Part shown: piece by piece, positions 3,663 through 10,066 of the stretch
Numbering within the stretch: position 1 is the first letter of the stretch
Layout of the letters: each line of letters begins with the position of its first letter
Assembly (NCBI GenBank): GCA_022712915.1
Contig: JAFLJQ010000205.1
Coordinates: 1 to 64,000, forward strand
Reading direction: 5' to 3'
Source of the DNA: Gammaproteobacteria bacterium
Lineage (GTDB): Bacteria > Pseudomonadota > Gammaproteobacteria > UBA6429 > Thiohalophilaceae
Length of the DNA: 64,000 bases
Made by a program: the position numbers and the translations under genes
Notes under the pieces: generated by a model
What the model was told of the DNA's origin: nothing
Databases searched by the model: none
Seen by the model: the letters and a program-made list of their open reading frames with translations, nothing else

Positions 3663-3775
3663 GGTCTCTTACATTGTGTGGGGGGAGGCTGGATATGGGG
3701 GATACATGAAATTGCCGATTAAGTCTGTGTTAATATTTCGTTCCCATACATATATAGAGTGAAGTTGTTTTGTCC

Positions 3776-6547
3776 ATGTCTCATCATCAAAAAGCCCCTT
3801 TTGTCCTGGTTGATGGATCATCCTATTTGTTCCGCGCCTATCACGCCATTCCTGAAATGAATAATTCGAAAGGGGAGCCGACTAACGCCATTTTTGGTGT
3901 GGTGAATATGTTGCGTCGCCTGATAGCCGATTATGGCCCGGAGCATGTGGTGGTGGTGTTTGATGCCAAGGGCAAGACCTTTCGTAATGATATGTATCCA
4001 GAATATAAGGCCAACCGGCCGCCTATGGCGGAGGATCTGGTCAGTCAGATTGCGCCAATCCACGAACTGGTGCAGGCCATGGGCCTGCCTTTGTTGTGTG
4101 TGCCGGGTGTCGAGGCCGATGATGTGATCGGTACCCTTGCGGCACAGGCCACGGAACTGGGCATGGATGCGGTGGTCTCGACCGGTGATAAGGACATGGC
4201 ACAATTGGTCAATCAGCATATCTCACTGGTCAATACCATGACCAATACCACGATGGATCGTGATGGGGTGGTGGCAAAGTTCGGTGTGCCGCCAGAGCGG
4301 ATCATCGATTATTTGACGCTGATCGGCGATACCGTGGATAACGTGCCCGGTGTGCCCAAGGTGGGCCCGAAGACGGCGGTGAAATGGCTGGCGCAATATG
4401 ACAATCTGGATGAAATCATGGCTCATGCCGATGAGTTCAAGGGCAAGGTGGGGGAATATTTGCGCGACAGTTTGGGACAACTGCCGCTGTCTCGTGCGCT
4501 GGTGACCATCAAATGTGATGTCGAGCTTGATGAAAGTCCTGAGACCCTTAAATCCAGACCAGCGGATAAGGAAAAATTGATCGAGCTGTTCAAACACTTT
4601 GAATTTAAGAGCTGGTTAAAGGAAGTGTTGGGTGACAGCAGTGCGACCTCGCCCGCTCTGAAATCCTCCCCGGAACCCTCCCCCGAACCCGCAGCGGAAG
4701 CACAAACGGATGCCTTTGCGGCGGAAAAACAAGCGGTATCAGGAGACTATACGACCCTTTTTACGGACAGTGAACTGCAAGACTGGGTGAAAAAACTCGA
4801 ACAGGCCGAGCTGTTTGCCTTTGATTTGGAAACGACCAGCCTTAATTATATGCAGGCTGAGATTGTCGGCTTGTCTTTTGCGGTGGAGGCCGGGAAAGCG
4901 GCTTATCTACCGGTGGCCCATGATTATATGGATGCCCCGTCGCAATTGAGTCGTGATGCTGTTTTAGCGGCCTTTAAACCCTTGCTGGAGGATCCCAGGC
5001 GGAAAAAGCTTGGCCAGAACCTTAAATATGATATGAGCGTGCTCGCGCGGTATGGTATTAATATGCAAGGTATTGCCTTCGACAGCATGTTGGAGTCTTA
5101 CGTGTTGGACAGCACCGCTAATCGCCATGACATGGATACTTTGGCCCTTAAGTACCTGGGTCACAAGACGATTCATTTTGAAGATATTGCCGGTAAGGGG
5201 GTCAAGCAACTGACCTTCAATCAGATTAGTCTCGATCTGGCGGCTCCTTATGCAGCGGAAGATGCCGATGTGACCCTGCAATTGCATGAAAGTCTCTGGC
5301 CACGTTTGCAGGCCATCCCTAGCTTGCAAAAGATATTTGAGGAGATCGAGCTGCCCTTGCTGCCGGTGTTATCGAATATTGAACGTTGCGGCGTATTGAT
5401 CGATAGCAAATTGCTCAAGGAACAAAGTCTGTCGTTAAGTAAGCGACTGCTGGAATTGGAAAAAGAGGCCTTTGATGCGGCGGGACAGGAGTTCAATCTT
5501 AGTTCGCCAAAACAGATCCAGGCCATTTTGTTTGAGAAGCAGGGTTTGCCGGTGATTTCCAAAACGCCCAAGGGACAGCCTTCGACGGCGGAATCCGTTC
5601 TTCAGGAGCTGGCCCAGGATTATCCCTTGCCGAAGCTTCTTCTCGAACATCGTAGTCTGAACAAACTCAAGTCAACCTATACTGATAAGTTGCCACTGAT
5701 GGTCGATAAGGATACCGGCCGGGTGCATACCTCTTATCATCAGGCTGTGGCGGCCACCGGCCGATTGTCATCATCGGATCCGAATCTGCAAAATATACCG
5801 ATTCGCAGCGAAGAAGGGCGCAAGATCCGCAAGGCGTTTATTGCCCCACAAGGATTCAAACTCATCGCGGCGGATTATTCTCAAATTGAGCTGCGTATCA
5901 TGGCCCATCTTTCTGAAGATGAAGGTCTGCTCAAGGCCTTTGCCAGTGGCCTGGATGTTCACCGAGCCACGGCTGCCGAGGTGTTTGGCGCTGAACCTGA
6001 TGAGGTGACGGCGGAGCAGCGCCGCTCGGCCAAGGCGATTAACTTCGGGTTGATTTACGGCATGTCGGCCTTTGGTCTGGCCAAACAACTGGATATTTCA
6101 CGTACTGAGGCACAGGCGTATGTGGATCTCTATTTTGAACGCTATCCCGGCGTGAAGGCTTACATGGAACAAATGCGGGCGTTGGCTAAGGCTCAGGGCT
6201 ATGTCGAAACCGTGTTTGGTCGTCGCCTGTATATTCCTGATATCAATGCCAGTAATGCGCAACGACGCCAATATGCCGAACGCACGGCCATCAATGCCCC
6301 CATGCAGGGCACGGCAGCCGATATTATTAAATTGGCGATGATTTCGCTGCAAACGCAGATTCAAGTTCGGCTGTTGCCTGTCAAAATGATCATGCAGGTG
6401 CACGATGAGCTGGTCTTTGAGGTTGCAGATGGTCAGCTTGATATGGCTATTGCCTTGATCCGGCAAGAAATGGAGCAGGCGGCCTGTTTGAAGGTGCCTT
6501 TGCTGGTTGATATTGGTGTGGGTGATAACTGGGATGAGGCACATTAG
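3776..6547 (+). CDS. polA: DNA polymerase I
   Basis: Full-length PolA (923 residues from ATG 3776; a TTG six bases upstream is possible) for Okazaki-fragment maturation and repair synthesis. The 5'-nuclease domain begins at LVDGSSYLFRAYHA and carries the Asp-rich VEADDVIGT and STGDKDMAQL. The 3'-5' exonuclease looks active: FDLETTSLN, GQNLKYDMSVLA and the AAEDADVTLQLHE segment keep the metal ligands. The polymerase has motif A DYSQIELR (about residue 700), motif B RRSAKAINFGLIYG and motif C MQVHDELVFEV. A Pro/Glu/Ala-rich linker of about 40 residues separates the nuclease and exonuclease domains. The first small RNA promoter follows its stop codon by about 45 bases. Confidence 0.97.
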   Translation: MSHHQKAPFVLVDGSSYLFRAYHAIPEMNNSKGEPTNAIFGVVNMLRRLIADYGPEHVVVVFDAKGKTFRNDMYPEYKANRPPMAEDLVSQIAPIHELVQAMGLPLLCVPGVEADDVIGTLAAQATELGMDAVVSTGDKDMAQLVNQHISLVNTMTNTTMDRDGVVAKFGVPPERIIDYLTLIGDTVDNVPGVPKVGPKTAVKWLAQYDNLDEIMAHADEFKGKVGEYLRDSLGQLPLSRALVTIKCDVELDESPETLKSRPADKEKLIELFKHFEFKSWLKEVLGDSSATSPALKSSPEPSPEPAAEAQTDAFAAEKQAVSGDYTTLFTDSELQDWVKKLEQAELFAFDLETTSLNYMQAEIVGLSFAVEAGKAAYLPVAHDYMDAPSQLSRDAVLAAFKPLLEDPRRKKLGQNLKYDMSVLARYGINMQGIAFDSMLESYVLDSTANRHDMDTLALKYLGHKTIHFEDIAGKGVKQLTFNQISLDLAAPYAAEDADVTLQLHESLWPRLQAIPSLQKIFEEIELPLLPVLSNIERCGVLIDSKLLKEQSLSLSKRLLELEKEAFDAAGQEFNLSSPKQIQAILFEKQGLPVISKTPKGQPSTAESVLQELAQDYPLPKLLLEHRSLNKLKSTYTDKLPLMVDKDTGRVHTSYHQAVAATGRLSSSDPNLQNIPIRSEEGRKIRKAFIAPQGFKLIAADYSQIELRIMAHLSEDEGLLKAFASGLDVHRATAAEVFGAEPDEVTAEQRRSAKAINFGLIYGMSAFGLAKQLDISRTEAQAYVDLYFERYPGVKAYMEQMRALAKAQGYVETVFGRRLYIPDINASNAQRRQYAERTAINAPMQGTAADIIKLAMISLQTQIQVRLLPVKMIMQVHDELVFEVADGQLDMAIALIRQEMEQAACLKVPLLVDIGVGDNWDEAH

Positions 6548-6594
6548 AAATTTACGGATGAATTTTCCCGTATGAAAAAAGTTGTCTATGTGCT

Positions 6595-6621
6595 GAACTT
6601 TTTCAGGATTGGTAAGTCTTA
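6595..6621 (+). promoter_or_regulatory. Sigma-E (RpoE/AlgU)-like promoter of small RNA 1
   Basis: GAACTT (6595-6600), 16 bases, then TCTTA (6617-6621). GAACTT is the sigma-E -35 consensus; TCTTA differs by one base from TCTGA/TCTAA. The spacing is identical in all four units. Predicted transcription start is near A6627. Confidence 0.6.
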
Positions 6622-6626
6622 GCATT

Positions 6627-6735
6627 ACGGTATCCTCCATACCTTCTTAGACGGAAGAATATCATTCGGTAACTCTCCAGCTGAATGTTTAATTTGTCCC
6701 GGTAATCAGCTTAAATGCTATGGCCGGGTTTTTTT
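6627..6735 (+). ncRNA. Putative small RNA 1 of the polA-engB array
   Basis: Predicted transcript of about 109 nt with three hairpins. Hairpin 1 pairs GGTAT (6629-6633) with ATACC (6639-6643) around a CCTCC loop, which could pair with Shine-Dalgarno sequences. Hairpin 2 pairs 6663-6670 with 6680-6687 around AACTCTCCA. The terminator starts with CCCGG at 6698, closes with CCGGG at 6728 and is followed by seven T. It contains no convincing open frame. Its position after polA corresponds to Spot 42 and ErsA, but I see no direct sequence match to Spot 42. Start and structure are inferred; expression is untested. Confidence 0.65.
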
Positions 6736-6915
6736 ATTTCGGGTTTAATAAGGATGTGAAGGGTTCTAAATGAGGTTCAGTTTGCCGGTGATTTATTGCG
6801 GCAATCTTTAATGTTATAGATTTGGCTTTGAAAAATAACCGGGGGAATTGTCTGTTTCTCTCACTAGAATATTTGCTGCTGAATTTTTCCGGATTAAAAA
6901 AATTATTTATACGCT

Positions 6916-6942
6916 GAACTTTTTCAGGATTGGTATGTCTTA
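6916..6942 (+). promoter_or_regulatory. Sigma-E-like promoter of small RNA 2
   Basis: GAACTT at 6916-6921, a 16-base spacer and TCTTA at 6938-6942. The predicted start is near A6948. An AT-rich tract (GGATTAAAAAAATTATTTAT) lies upstream, where an UP element would be expected. Confidence 0.6.
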
Positions 6943-6947
6943 GCATT

Positions 6948-7057
6948 ACGGTATCCTCCCTTGCCTCTTTCGCCGGCAGAATATCATTCGGTACCTCTCC
7001 AGCTTCCTGTTTAATTTGTCCCGGTCATCAGCTTAAATGCTATGACCGGGTTTTTTT
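6948..7057 (+). ncRNA. Putative small RNA 2 of the array
   Basis: Predicted transcript of about 110 nt. Hairpin 1 is weaker than in copies 1 and 3: GGTA pairs with TGCC around TCCTCCCT, still exposing CCTCC. The second hairpin is broken here, because the 3' arm reads CTTCCTG instead of CTGAATG. The terminator is strong: CCCGGTCAT pairs perfectly with ATGACCGGG (7020-7050), with an inner AGC/GCT step and seven T residues. This copy could be drifting or specialised. Confidence 0.6.
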
Positions 7058-7239
7058 ATTTCGGATTTAATTAAGGATGTGAAGGGTTCTAAATGAGGGT
7101 TCAGTTTGCCGATGATTTATTGCAACAATCTTTAACATTATAGATTTGGCTTTGAAAAATAACCGGGGGAATTGTCTGTTTCTCTCACTAGAATATTTGC
7201 GGCTGAATTTTTCCGGATTAAAAAAATTATTTATGCGAT

Positions 7240-7266
7240 GAACTTTTTCAGGATTGGTAAGTCTTA
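7240..7266 (+). promoter_or_regulatory. Sigma-E-like promoter of small RNA 3
   Basis: GAACTT at 7240-7245, a 16-base spacer and TCTTA at 7262-7266. The base before GAACTT differs from the other copies (GAT instead of GCT), while both boxes are unchanged. Predicted start is near A7272. Confidence 0.6.
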
Positions 7267-7271
7267 GCATT

Positions 7272-7380
7272 ACGGTATCCTCCATGCCTCTTTAGACGGA
7301 AGAATATCATTCGGTAACTCTCCAGCTGAATGTTTAATTTGTCCCGGTCATCAGCTTAAATGCTATGACCGGGTTTTTTT
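7272..7380 (+). ncRNA. Putative small RNA 3 of the array
   Basis: Predicted transcript of about 109 nt, close to copy 1. Hairpin 1 pairs GGTAT (7274-7278) with ATGCC (7284-7288), keeping the stem through a G-U pair, around loop CCTCC (7279-7283). Hairpin 2 is the same as in copy 1. The terminator runs from 7343 and ends with a T-run at 7374-7380, with a perfect 9-bp outer stem. No protein-coding frame is apparent on the plus strand. Confidence 0.65.
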
Positions 7381-7508
7381 ATTTCAGATTTAATTAAGGA
7401 TGTGATGGGTTATAAATGAGGTTCAGCTTGCCTGCAATTCATAGTAAGAATTTTTAATATTATGGATTTGGTTTTTAGCCTTGCGGAGTACATGGATATT
7501 TTTTGCAG

Positions 7509-7540
7509 TGAAGCGTGGGGTTATATGGGCCCACGCTTCA
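7509..7540. repeat. Inverted repeat inserted in unit 4 leader
   Basis: A perfect 11-bp inverted repeat, TGAAGCGTGGG (7509-7519) and CCCACGCTTCA (7530-7540), sits in the leader of unit 4 and accounts for part of its extra length compared with units 2 and 3. It is not followed by a T-run, so it is not an obvious terminator. It could be an operator or a small inserted hairpin. Confidence 0.6.
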
Positions 7541-7616
7541 AATACTATTGCAGAGTGAAGGCTTATTCGGGATTTGTGGCTGAGTTTTTTTGGATTAAAA
7601 AAATTATATTTCTACT

Positions 7617-7643
7617 GAACTTTTTTGAGCCTGGTGAGTCTTA
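7617..7643 (+). promoter_or_regulatory. Sigma-E-like promoter of small RNA 4
   Basis: GAACTT at 7617-7622, a 16-base spacer and TCTTA at 7639-7643. The spacer has changed at several bases compared with copies 1-3 but keeps its length, and both boxes are intact, which suggests selection on the promoter. Predicted start is near 7649. Confidence 0.6.
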
Positions 7644-7648
7644 TGACT

Positions 7649-7765
7649 TGCGGCATCCCTCCGTAACCCGCATCTTGTTAGGCGGGTAGAAATCATTCAG
7701 TTATTCCCCAGCTGAATGTTTAATTTTCCCGGTCATAAGCTGAAATGCAATGACCGGGTTTTTTT
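7649..7765 (+). ncRNA. Putative small RNA 4 of the array (diverged)
   Basis: Predicted transcript of about 117 nt. The 5' part has changed to CGGCATCCCTCCG, so CCTCC remains accessible. Its neighbourhood can fold through TGCGG/CCGCA or through CCCGC/GCGGG (about 7667-7686). Hairpin 2 is better paired than in copy 1: CATTCAG (7694-7700) with CTGAATG (7712-7718), a G-U to A-U change, with a TATTCCCCA loop. The terminator has CCCGGTCAT at 7728 pairing with ATGACCGGG ending at 7758, then seven T. Confidence 0.6.
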
Positions 7766-7889
7766 ATTTTGGGTTTGATAAGGACGTGAAGGGTTTTAAA
7801 TAAGGATTCAGTTTAGCTATAATTTATTGTAACAATCTTTAACATCATGGATACAGACAGCGATTGATATTTGTCTAGACTGTGTAGTG

Positions 7890-8008
7890 AAGCAGCTTGG
7901 TTCCCGCATATCCTCCCTGGCGGGTGATCAAACCCCGGTTTCCCCAAACCGGGAAAACTTAAGCCCTGTGCCTTCTCCCCCCCACACTCCTAGGCACGGG
8001 GTTTTTTT
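7890..8008 (+). ncRNA. Putative small RNA 5, divergent member next to engB
   Basis: The sequence differs from copies 1-4 but has the same plan. Hairpin 1 pairs CCCGC (7903-7907) with GCGGG (7920-7924) around a 12-base loop containing TCCTCCC. Hairpin 2 pairs CCCGGTTT (7934-7941) with AAACCGGG (7946-7953) around CCCC. The terminator pairs 7964-7972 with 7993-8001, has a long C-rich loop, and ends in a T-run at 8002-8008. The 5' end is uncertain: I see no GAACTT-N16-TCTTA here. By position and C-rich loops it is the best candidate for the ErsA/Spot 42-type resident RNA. Confidence 0.6.
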
Positions 8009-8241
8009 TATCTTTAAAAATATTCTTTTCACCATTCAAAATGTATCCAGAGTCTATGATAGCGGTTCTGCGTTGTGCTCGAATTCTCATATTTTTCAAT
8101 ACGGCAAGGTTTTAACTTTCTGCTCTCCTTACTTTATGCTGTATTTTATCTTCATGGAGGAAATGCTAAAGGGTTGTCTACAACAAGTCCTTGGGCGCAC
8201 ATTGGTTTGCTTCGTATAAAAAATCACTATTTCTAGATATA

Positions 8242-8542: not shown

Positions 8543-9172
8543 TTAAGTTTCTTTTTCATTTTTAGGGTTAATTTCTAACCAGTTGTCAATTATGGCTCGG
8601 GCTTCTTCTACGCCTGTCTTTTTTGTGGCTGAAAAGATCTGTAGACTGACATTTACCTGATCTGCCAAGGCATGTTTGACCTGCATTAAGGTGTTCAGTG
8701 CGGCAGCACGTTTTAACTTGTCAGCCTTGGTTAACAGGATATGCACGGGCATTTGAAAATGTTGGCACCAGCCTAGCATTTGATTATCAAAATCGGTTAA
8801 CGGATGACGGATATCCATCAATAGTATGAGGCCGCGTAAGGTTTTGCGCTGATTTAGATAGGTTTCCATGGCCTGCTGCCATTGTTGTTTAACCTTTAGA
8901 GGTACCTGTGCGTAGCCGTAGCCGGGTAAATCCACCAGCCGACGCTGCTCATCCAGCTGAAAAAAAATCAGGTGCTGGGTGCGGCCGGGGGTTTTACTGA
9001 CTCGTGCCAGGGCTTTTTGGCTGGTAATGGCGTTCAGGGCGCTGGATTTGCCTGCGTTGGAGCGCCCAGCGAAGGCTACCTCCATGCCGGAGTCGGCTGG
9101 GGCCAGCGAGGGTTGGGGCACACTGGTGAAAAATTCTGCACGTTGATAATAATTGATGGATTTAGTCGGCAT
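8543..9172 (-). CDS. engB: Ribosome biogenesis GTP-binding protein YihA/EngB
   Basis: A 209-residue TRAFAC-class GTPase needed for late 50S subunit assembly and cell division. The G1 loop is GRSNAGKS (36-43), G3 is DLPGYGYA (from residue 81) and G4 is TKAD (148-151). Length matches the family. It is convergent with polA and its small RNA array, an order conserved in gammaproteobacteria. The C-terminus is Lys/Glu-rich (NPKNEKET). Confidence 0.95.
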
Positions 9173-9326
9173 TATGAAATATTCTACTTGTTATTCTTGA
9201 CCCGCAGGGCGGCCCTTGGTATACAAAGGGCCGAGTGTTTTACTAGTTTTGGTAGTTCATCTTAGCATTTTATTCAAGGGTGTGATTGCTGGGCTATTTT
9301 GTTATTTACATTGGAGATTGAAAGAG

Positions 9327-9641
9327 ATGAAGAAATTGATGGTTGTAGCCTCTGCATTGATGGCTTTTGGTGCGGTAAATGTTCAGGCTGATGAGGGTAA
9401 AAAAACCTATCAGGCGGCTTGTTTTGCCTGCCATGGTATTGGTGCCGCTGGTGCGCCACTAGCGGGCAACAAAGCTGCATGGGAGCCTCGTATTGCCAAG
9501 GGTATACCTACATTAGAAAAGCATTCTCTTGAAGGCTTTAAGGGCAAAACAGGCTTCATGCCTCCCAAAGGTGGTCGTACTGATCTAAGTGATGATGCTG
9601 TAAAAGCAGCGGTTAAATACATGGTAAGTTTGGTTAAATGA
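9327..9641 (+). CDS. Cytochrome c5 family monohaem protein, copy 1
   Basis: A small periplasmic electron carrier. The ATG at 9327 is chosen because it begins a clean signal peptide (MKKLMVVASALM, cleavage after VQA near residue 21) and GGAG lies at 9312-9315. Haem attachment is CFACH at residues 32-36; the axial Met is probably M78 in GFMPPKGG. Mature length is about 83 residues, typical of class I c5 cytochromes. It is the first of two tandem copies and lies upstream of cytochrome c4 and the System II maturation genes. Confidence 0.9.
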   Translation: MKKLMVVASALMAFGAVNVQADEGKKTYQAACFACHGIGAAGAPLAGNKAAWEPRIAKGIPTLEKHSLEGFKGKTGFMPPKGGRTDLSDDAVKAAVKYMVSLVK

Positions 9642-9751: not shown

Positions 9752-10066
9752 ATGAAGAAACTGATGGTTGTAGCCTCCGCGTTAATGGTTTTGGGGGCGG
9801 TAAATGTTCAGGCAGATGAAGGTGAAAAGACCTATAAAGCGGCTTGTTTTGTTTGCCACGATGCTGGTATCGCAGGATCCCCGAAAATAGATGATAAAGC
9901 GGCATGGGCACCGCGTATTGCTCAGGGTTTGAGTAAGTTAGAGGAACATGCCATTAAAGGTTTCAAGGGCAAGACCGGTGTTATGCCTCCCAAGGGTGGC
10001 CGTGTAGATTTGAGTGATGATGTTGTGAAAGCGGCAGTTAAATATATGGTAGATCGTGTCAAATGA
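9752..10066 (+). CDS. Cytochrome c5 family monohaem protein, copy 2
   Basis: A tandem paralogue of the preceding gene, with almost the same signal peptide, CFVCH at residues 32-36 and Met 78 in the same place. The haem-proximal region differs (HDAGIAGSPKIDD against HGIGAAGAPLAGN), so redox partners or potential may differ. A GGGAG site precedes the ATG. About 70 bases upstream also resemble those of copy 1 (CATCTTAGC and following), so the duplicated unit is roughly 425 bp and included regulatory DNA. Its TGA overlaps the start of the c4 gene. Confidence 0.9.
   Translation: MKKLMVVASALMVLGAVNVQADEGEKTYKAACFVCHDAGIAGSPKIDDKAAWAPRIAQGLSKLEEHAIKGFKGKTGVMPPKGGRVDLSDDVVKAAVKYMVDRVK

Follow-up and report, generated by a model that had tools for sequence, protein, structure and literature searches.

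A tandem array of four predicted ErsA-like small RNA genes with sigmaE-type promoters between polA and engB of a gammaproteobacterium

In Escherichia coli the small RNA (sRNA) Spot 42 is a regulator of carbon metabolism under the control of CRP, and is not known to have a sigmaE promoter there. The role of Spot 42 is treated in the work on Xanthomonas sX13, an sRNA encoded downstream of polA which has three stems and whose C-rich loops repress mRNAs with G-rich sites; the authors of that work noted a common three-stem, C-rich layout of the polA-locus RNAs (PMC3771888). Pseudomonas ErsA is strictly dependent on sigma22 and is induced by envelope stress (PMC7565897; PMC5819304). Multicopy sibling sRNAs are also known (reviewed in PMC4211561). 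Listeria monocytogenes carries five copies, LhrC1-5, of 111-114 nt, which are induced by envelope stress, pair with Shine-Dalgarno sequences through UCCC motifs and act additively (PMC6794450), while Rhodobacter sphaeroides has four homologous stress sRNAs, CcsR1-4, with CCUCC-type motifs (as in their Rfam name), controlled by alternative sigma factors (PMC8307010).

The window analyzed here is a stretch of 64,000 nucleotides in which polA (3770-6547, plus strand) and engB (8543-9172, minus strand) are the neighbors on either side of a repeat array. A preliminary description had placed five sRNA units with T-runs in this interval, and both the array and the T-runs were found there. Four direct-repeat units were delimited (6553-6745, 6874-7067, 7198-7390 and 7575-7775) with start-to-start spacings of approximately 322, 323 and 384, followed by a fifth element at 7886-8009 which is unlike the other four. 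Over 190-200 bp, the identities to unit 3 of units 1, 2 and 4 were, in that order, 92, 93 and 79%. The T-runs at 6729-6735, 7051-7057, 7374-7380, 7759-7765 and 8002-8008 each lie 3' of a G+C-rich stem, in agreement with the intrinsic terminator that had been claimed for all five units. Two adjoining small cytochrome-c-like genes beyond engB (9216-9641 and 9752-10066) have almost identical signal peptides, and this pair looks like another tandem duplication. The parts of the array are as follows.

6595..6621, plus strand: sigmaE/AlgU-type promoter of unit 1, GAACTT-N16-TCTTA, by consensus; identical core upstream of rpoE
6627..6735, plus strand: unit 1 (A1), predicted sRNA; start inferred from the promoter; supported by model R1 (40.1 bits) and fold
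Unit 1 hairpins, plus strand, predicted fold: 5' hairpin 6629-6643 (CCUCC loop), middle 6663-6687, terminator 6698-6735
6916..6942, plus strand: sigmaE-type promoter of unit 2, by consensus
6948..7057, plus strand: unit 2 (A2), predicted sRNA; R1 15.5 bits, E 0.05; fold
Unit 2 hairpins, plus strand, predicted fold: weak 5' hairpin 6950-6965, middle hairpin lost, terminator 7020-7057
7240..7266, plus strand: sigmaE-type promoter of unit 3, by consensus
7272..7380, plus strand: unit 3 (A3), predicted sRNA; R1 37.4 bits and fold
Unit 3 hairpins, plus strand, predicted fold: 5' hairpin 7274-7288 (CCUCC loop), middle 7308-7332, terminator 7343-7380
7617..7643, plus strand: sigmaE-type promoter of unit 4, by consensus
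7649..7765, plus strand: unit 4 (A4), predicted sRNA; R1 33.5 bits and fold
Unit 4 hairpins, plus strand, predicted fold: 5' hairpin 7649-7665 (CAUCCCU loop), stem of the old hairpin 1 7666-7687, middle 7694-7718, terminator 7728-7765
7826..7881, plus strand: region upstream of gene B; degenerate TTTAACAATGTTTAACA-like element 7830-7844, -10-like TAGACT 7876-7881, without sigmaE motif
7886..8009, plus strand: unit 5 = gene B, a separate predicted sRNA gene; ErsA model 35.5 bits (under the cut-off), R1 64.4 bits, fold and tree
Unit 5 hairpins, plus strand, predicted fold: 7897-7931 (CCUCCC loop), 7934-7953, terminator to 8009

Direct repeats of approximately 322 bp with palindromic stems might also represent mobile DNA or a structural element, such as a MITE, a REP-like sequence or a terminator repeat, that happens to sit at polA-engB. 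However, with unit 3 as probe exactly four places were found in the 4.24 Mb genome, all of them in the polA-engB interval (100, 93, 92 and 79% identity), and no copy was found in 57 other genomes, 36 of which were from the same family; moreover, the unit combines a promoter with hairpins in a set order and a terminator, and has orthologues at the same locus. We regard this explanation as hardly credible, and the spread of identical repeats through the genome, which the preliminary description had named as evidence against its proposal, was not observed. Since the copies differ from one another and sit inside a 91 kb contig, the array is not an echo of assembly, although it is conceivable that additional identical copies were merged by it. 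Two other sequences, GAACTTATTGAACCCCATCGGATCAGA and GAACTTTCTGTATTTCCCGCGATCAGA, are repeated near many contig ends of the window genome (G000) and are probably insertion sequences which break the assembly. A viral-contig search with EngB gave no match.

The polA-engB neighborhood was drawn from approximately 40 relatives. A gene, here called A, with a GAAC-type promoter, a hairpin order with C-rich loops and a terminator was identified in 25 of the 36 family genomes, and its promoter in the relatives is of the sigmaE/AlgU type (GAACTT-N16-TCNTA). Downstream of it, many relatives carry a gene B of similar hairpin order and without the sigmaE motif. One A and one B were found in the congener G002, one A and two B in the congener G001, and four A and one B in the window. 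In a tree of the A and B genes, units 1 to 4 form one clade (bootstrap 100) beside the A genes of the congeners, and unit 5 groups with the B genes of the genus. Because both congeners have a single A and units 1 to 4 form one clade beside the congener genes, the expansion to four copies most likely occurred in the lineage of the window, represented in the analysis by one genome of its species, after the split from G001 and G002. The proposal that a resident sRNA had been amplified in tandem is thereby upheld for units 1 to 4, the number amplified being four and not five. Unit 5 had been taken for a divergent copy; by the tree and the upstream comparison, which led us to reject five siblings, it is a single copy of a second predicted gene with its own orthologues, different from and older than the copies in units 1 to 4. 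The spacers after units 1 to 3 resemble the stretch upstream of gene B, which suggests that each duplication carried A together with part of the A-B spacer.

A near-palindrome, TTTAACAATGTTTAACA, is conserved before gene B some 45-50 nt upstream of a conserved -10-like box, TGTCTA(C/G)ACT (loci L038, L039, L048 and L072). It is degenerate in the window, with degenerate traces also in the spacers after units 1 to 3, and is perhaps the site for some regulator. At L038, the locus of G001, polA and gene A are separated by some 3 kb of other sequence, and gene B is doubled; on account of this insert and duplication, the polA-engB interval is considered unstable in the genus.

The covariance-model search of related genomes that had been proposed was carried out with a model (R1) built from the A genes of 21 relatives, the window being left out. 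In the window R1 matched unit 5 with 64.4 bits, unit 1 with 40.1, unit 3 with 37.4 and unit 4 with 33.5, while unit 2 was marginal (15.5 bits, E 0.05). Units 1, 3, 4 and 5, and marginally unit 2, thus fall within the group that R1 defines from relatives only, the polA locus and covarying stems. Over 62 gene copies taken from the intervals, 94.2% of cells pair and two-sided changes occur in 14 of 14 pairs; fitting of the alignment (A3) to the model favors its pairs, but the contrast to the controls is large, none of 500 shuffles being as high and sliding of the partners removing the signal (far lower values). The polA-locus sRNA group thus has the covarying hairpins of a real RNA family. When folds were compared with dinucleotide shuffles, z values of -1.8, -3.8, -3.5, -4.2 and -3.3 were obtained for units 1 to 5, respectively; in units 1 to 3 most of this signal comes from the terminators, and their 5' domains alone folded no better than shuffles. 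The claim that differences between the copies keep structure is strongly supported across the wider family, but unit 2 contradicts it, its middle stem having been broken by a change from GAATG to TTCCTG, and among the four window copies it was not shown. The A copies of the window are predicted to be sRNAs of approximately 110-120 nt. Two other identities were considered and set aside: no known Rfam family was over its cut-off in the window, and some repeated short frames, of 31 and 20 amino acids, which might have indicated small proteins, cross promoter and hairpin segments and are not common to all four units.

The most telling feature of units 1 to 4, which the preliminary description lacked, is the sigmaE-type promoter. 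GAACTT-N16-TCTTA was identified before each of them (starts 6595, 6916, 7240 and 7617) and not before unit 5; its layout is that of sigmaE/AlgU promoters, and the first hairpin follows within approximately 10 nt. A loose pattern, GAACTT-N16/17-TCNNA, was not enriched genome-wide: 63 sites were counted, fewer than the 83 of the reversed pattern that served as control. The exact motif occurs five times in the genome-wide list, namely before units 1 to 4 and once on contig C60. There it precedes by approximately 55 nt the probable start codon of the sole gene above the RpoE family cut-off, a place where an autoregulated sigmaE promoter would be expected. By our estimate, chance alone would give about two matches to these 11 bases in a genome as large as this one, so the weight of the C60 site lies in its position and not in the count. 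A different ECF sigma factor, or the housekeeping RNA polymerase, might use these promoters, in which case the products would not be envelope-stress RNAs; this could be argued from the recognition of the motif by consensus only and from further, weaker RpoE-family matches in the genome. Such a reading is nevertheless quite improbable, given the identical motif before the sole gene over the RpoE cut-off and the sigma22 dependence of Pseudomonas ErsA, encoded at the same locus (PMC7565897).

The A RNA of the congeners has, in order, a short hairpin (ACGGU...ACCGU), a hairpin CCCGC-AUACCUCCCU-GCGGG, a CAUUC..GAAUG-like hairpin and the terminator. In unit 4 the CCCGC/GCGGG stem is kept, its loop is now AUCUUGUUAG, and the loop of the 5' hairpin has turned into CAUCCCU. 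Units 1 to 3 are approximately 8 nt shorter in the hairpin region, their 5' end forms GGUAU-CCUCC-AUACC and the old hairpin is a remnant. Because the loop of the congeners' second hairpin is changed in unit 4, and a CCUCC-type loop now stands at the 5' hairpin of units 1 to 3, the anti-Shine-Dalgarno seed (CCUCC) appears, in one alignment with predicted folds, to have shifted out of the second hairpin and into a new first one. Compared with the other units, unit 4 is most diverged in hairpin 1 (44-52% identity), its terminator being 87-92% identical. Unit 2 may be decaying or changing its function.

These changes bear on whether the expansion was selected. The copies might be real sRNA genes whose expansion is neutral or decaying, one of them (unit 3 or 1) working and the others being redundant remnants of unequal recombination, without selected dosage or target splitting. 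The lost middle hairpin and 15.5 bits of unit 2 fit such a history, as do the C-rich loops of units 1 to 3, which are weakened both in the middle hairpin and in the terminator, and one genome only represents the species. Against this, promoter core (74-100% identity) and terminator (87-100%) were kept on all four copies although hairpin 1 of unit 4 has fallen to approximately 50%, and four-copy arrays also arose in another family (f158, see below); we therefore think neutral expansion unlikely, though it is the rival that deserves most weight.

Beyond the family, R1 matches were found in 42 of 58 near-set genomes. Of 369 genomes drawn from the whole class, 153 had a match, almost always a single one, the class-wide counts being lower bounds as only nine candidates per genome were scored. 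In each of two genomes of f158 (G202 and G303, loci L115 and L116), a family far from that of the window, four copies stand in tandem in the polA-engB interval. A sigmaE-type promoter precedes each copy at L116, and GGAAC...GGTCTGA, read by eye, precedes each at L115. All of these copies carry a near-identical UUUUCUCCCU loop, so that the seed is constant in f158 whereas it has diverged in the window, and with the sX13 model one copy reached 48.3 bits (cut-off 50). As A is single-copy in the congeners and family of the window, it follows from these comparisons that the f158 arrays are separate from the window's expansion. The absence of earlier accounts of amplification at this locus agrees with our literature search, in which no report of a tandem sRNA array at polA-engB was found (subscription journals lay mostly outside it); the f158 arrays mean, however, that such amplification is not unique to the window genome. 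Multicopy siblings and polA-locus sRNAs were already known; what appears to be new is a tandem array of them at polA-engB. Sub-threshold matches of the Rfam models for ErsA, anti-hemB and sX13 were found at the polA/engB locus in different genomes (L124 and L125, both of family f103, L127 and others), anti-hemB in L125 being over the cut-off, and this overlap suggests that the three are one spread-out superfamily. ErsA-like RNAs at the polA locus reach well beyond Pseudomonas.

The best explanation, which we consider probable, is a lineage-specific tandem expansion at polA-engB, beside the unexpanded gene B, in which a trans-acting, ErsA-like sRNA gene under sigmaE control went from one copy to four. 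By analogy with ErsA, sX13 and LhrC1-5, the array most likely encodes envelope-stress-induced, Hfq-assisted sRNAs, in raised dosage, which pair with Shine-Dalgarno sites; Hfq is encoded in the window genome. Envelope stress would free sigmaE (RpoE), upon which all four promoters would fire; the four RNAs of approximately 110-120 nt, helped by Hfq, would expose CCUCC or UCCC loops, and pairing of these with Shine-Dalgarno regions would repress translation. The extra copies would raise dosage, and the changed seed hairpin may have split the target set. The start regions of nine outer-membrane-protein genes (from two Pfam searches) paired no better than 32 background regions, and on one reading of the hfq leader as an sX13-like target no clear G-rich site was seen. 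The sole strong duplex hit (L140) was rejected as its GTG start, inside a G-rich stretch, is doubtful.

A wider interpretation is possible and is offered tentatively: tandem arrays of sigmaE sRNA genes would arise recurrently at polA-engB, as in a nursery, four self-promoted copies having been reached separately in two or more gammaproteobacterial lineages, and in the window lineage, where the seed would have moved, the array would correspond in a Gram-negative host to LhrC1-5, its targets being re-divided among the siblings. The data themselves show a putative envelope-stress sRNA reaching four copies on more than one occasion at this locus. The origin of new sRNAs and of their seeds is a question with few datable examples, and here duplication, seed relocation and hairpin loss can be put in order and tested, as the sequences supply the unexpanded state (in both congeners) together with gene B, the promoter and the structure across the family.

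Among the known systems, Spot 42 (spf) of enterics resembles the array in its locus next to polA, and its model (RF00021) matched nothing in the window, although E values of up to 5 were allowed. sX13 (RF02232) shares the polA locus, the three stems and the C-rich loops, but is single-copy and acts without Hfq, and its model likewise found no match in the window. With ErsA (Rfam Pseudomon-1, RF01719), a post-transcriptional regulator of targets such as algC and amrZ, the A genes share the place between polA and engB, a sigma22/AlgU-type promoter, present by consensus in units 1 to 4 and not in unit 5, and C-rich hairpin loops; ErsA is, however, one gene where the window has four A and B, and with its model (cut-off 50 bits) unit 5 reached 35.5 bits and units 1 to 4 gave no match, so they are not filed as ErsA proper. 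CcsR1-4 are processed from one precursor behind ccaF1, whereas the window copies each have their own promoter. LhrC1-5 differ in their unrelated sequence and locus, their Gram-positive host, their control by the two-component system LisRK and not by sigmaE, and in not needing Hfq; they are like the window array in comprising several homologous genes, every one of them with a promoter and a terminator of its own, as judged here from sequence alone.
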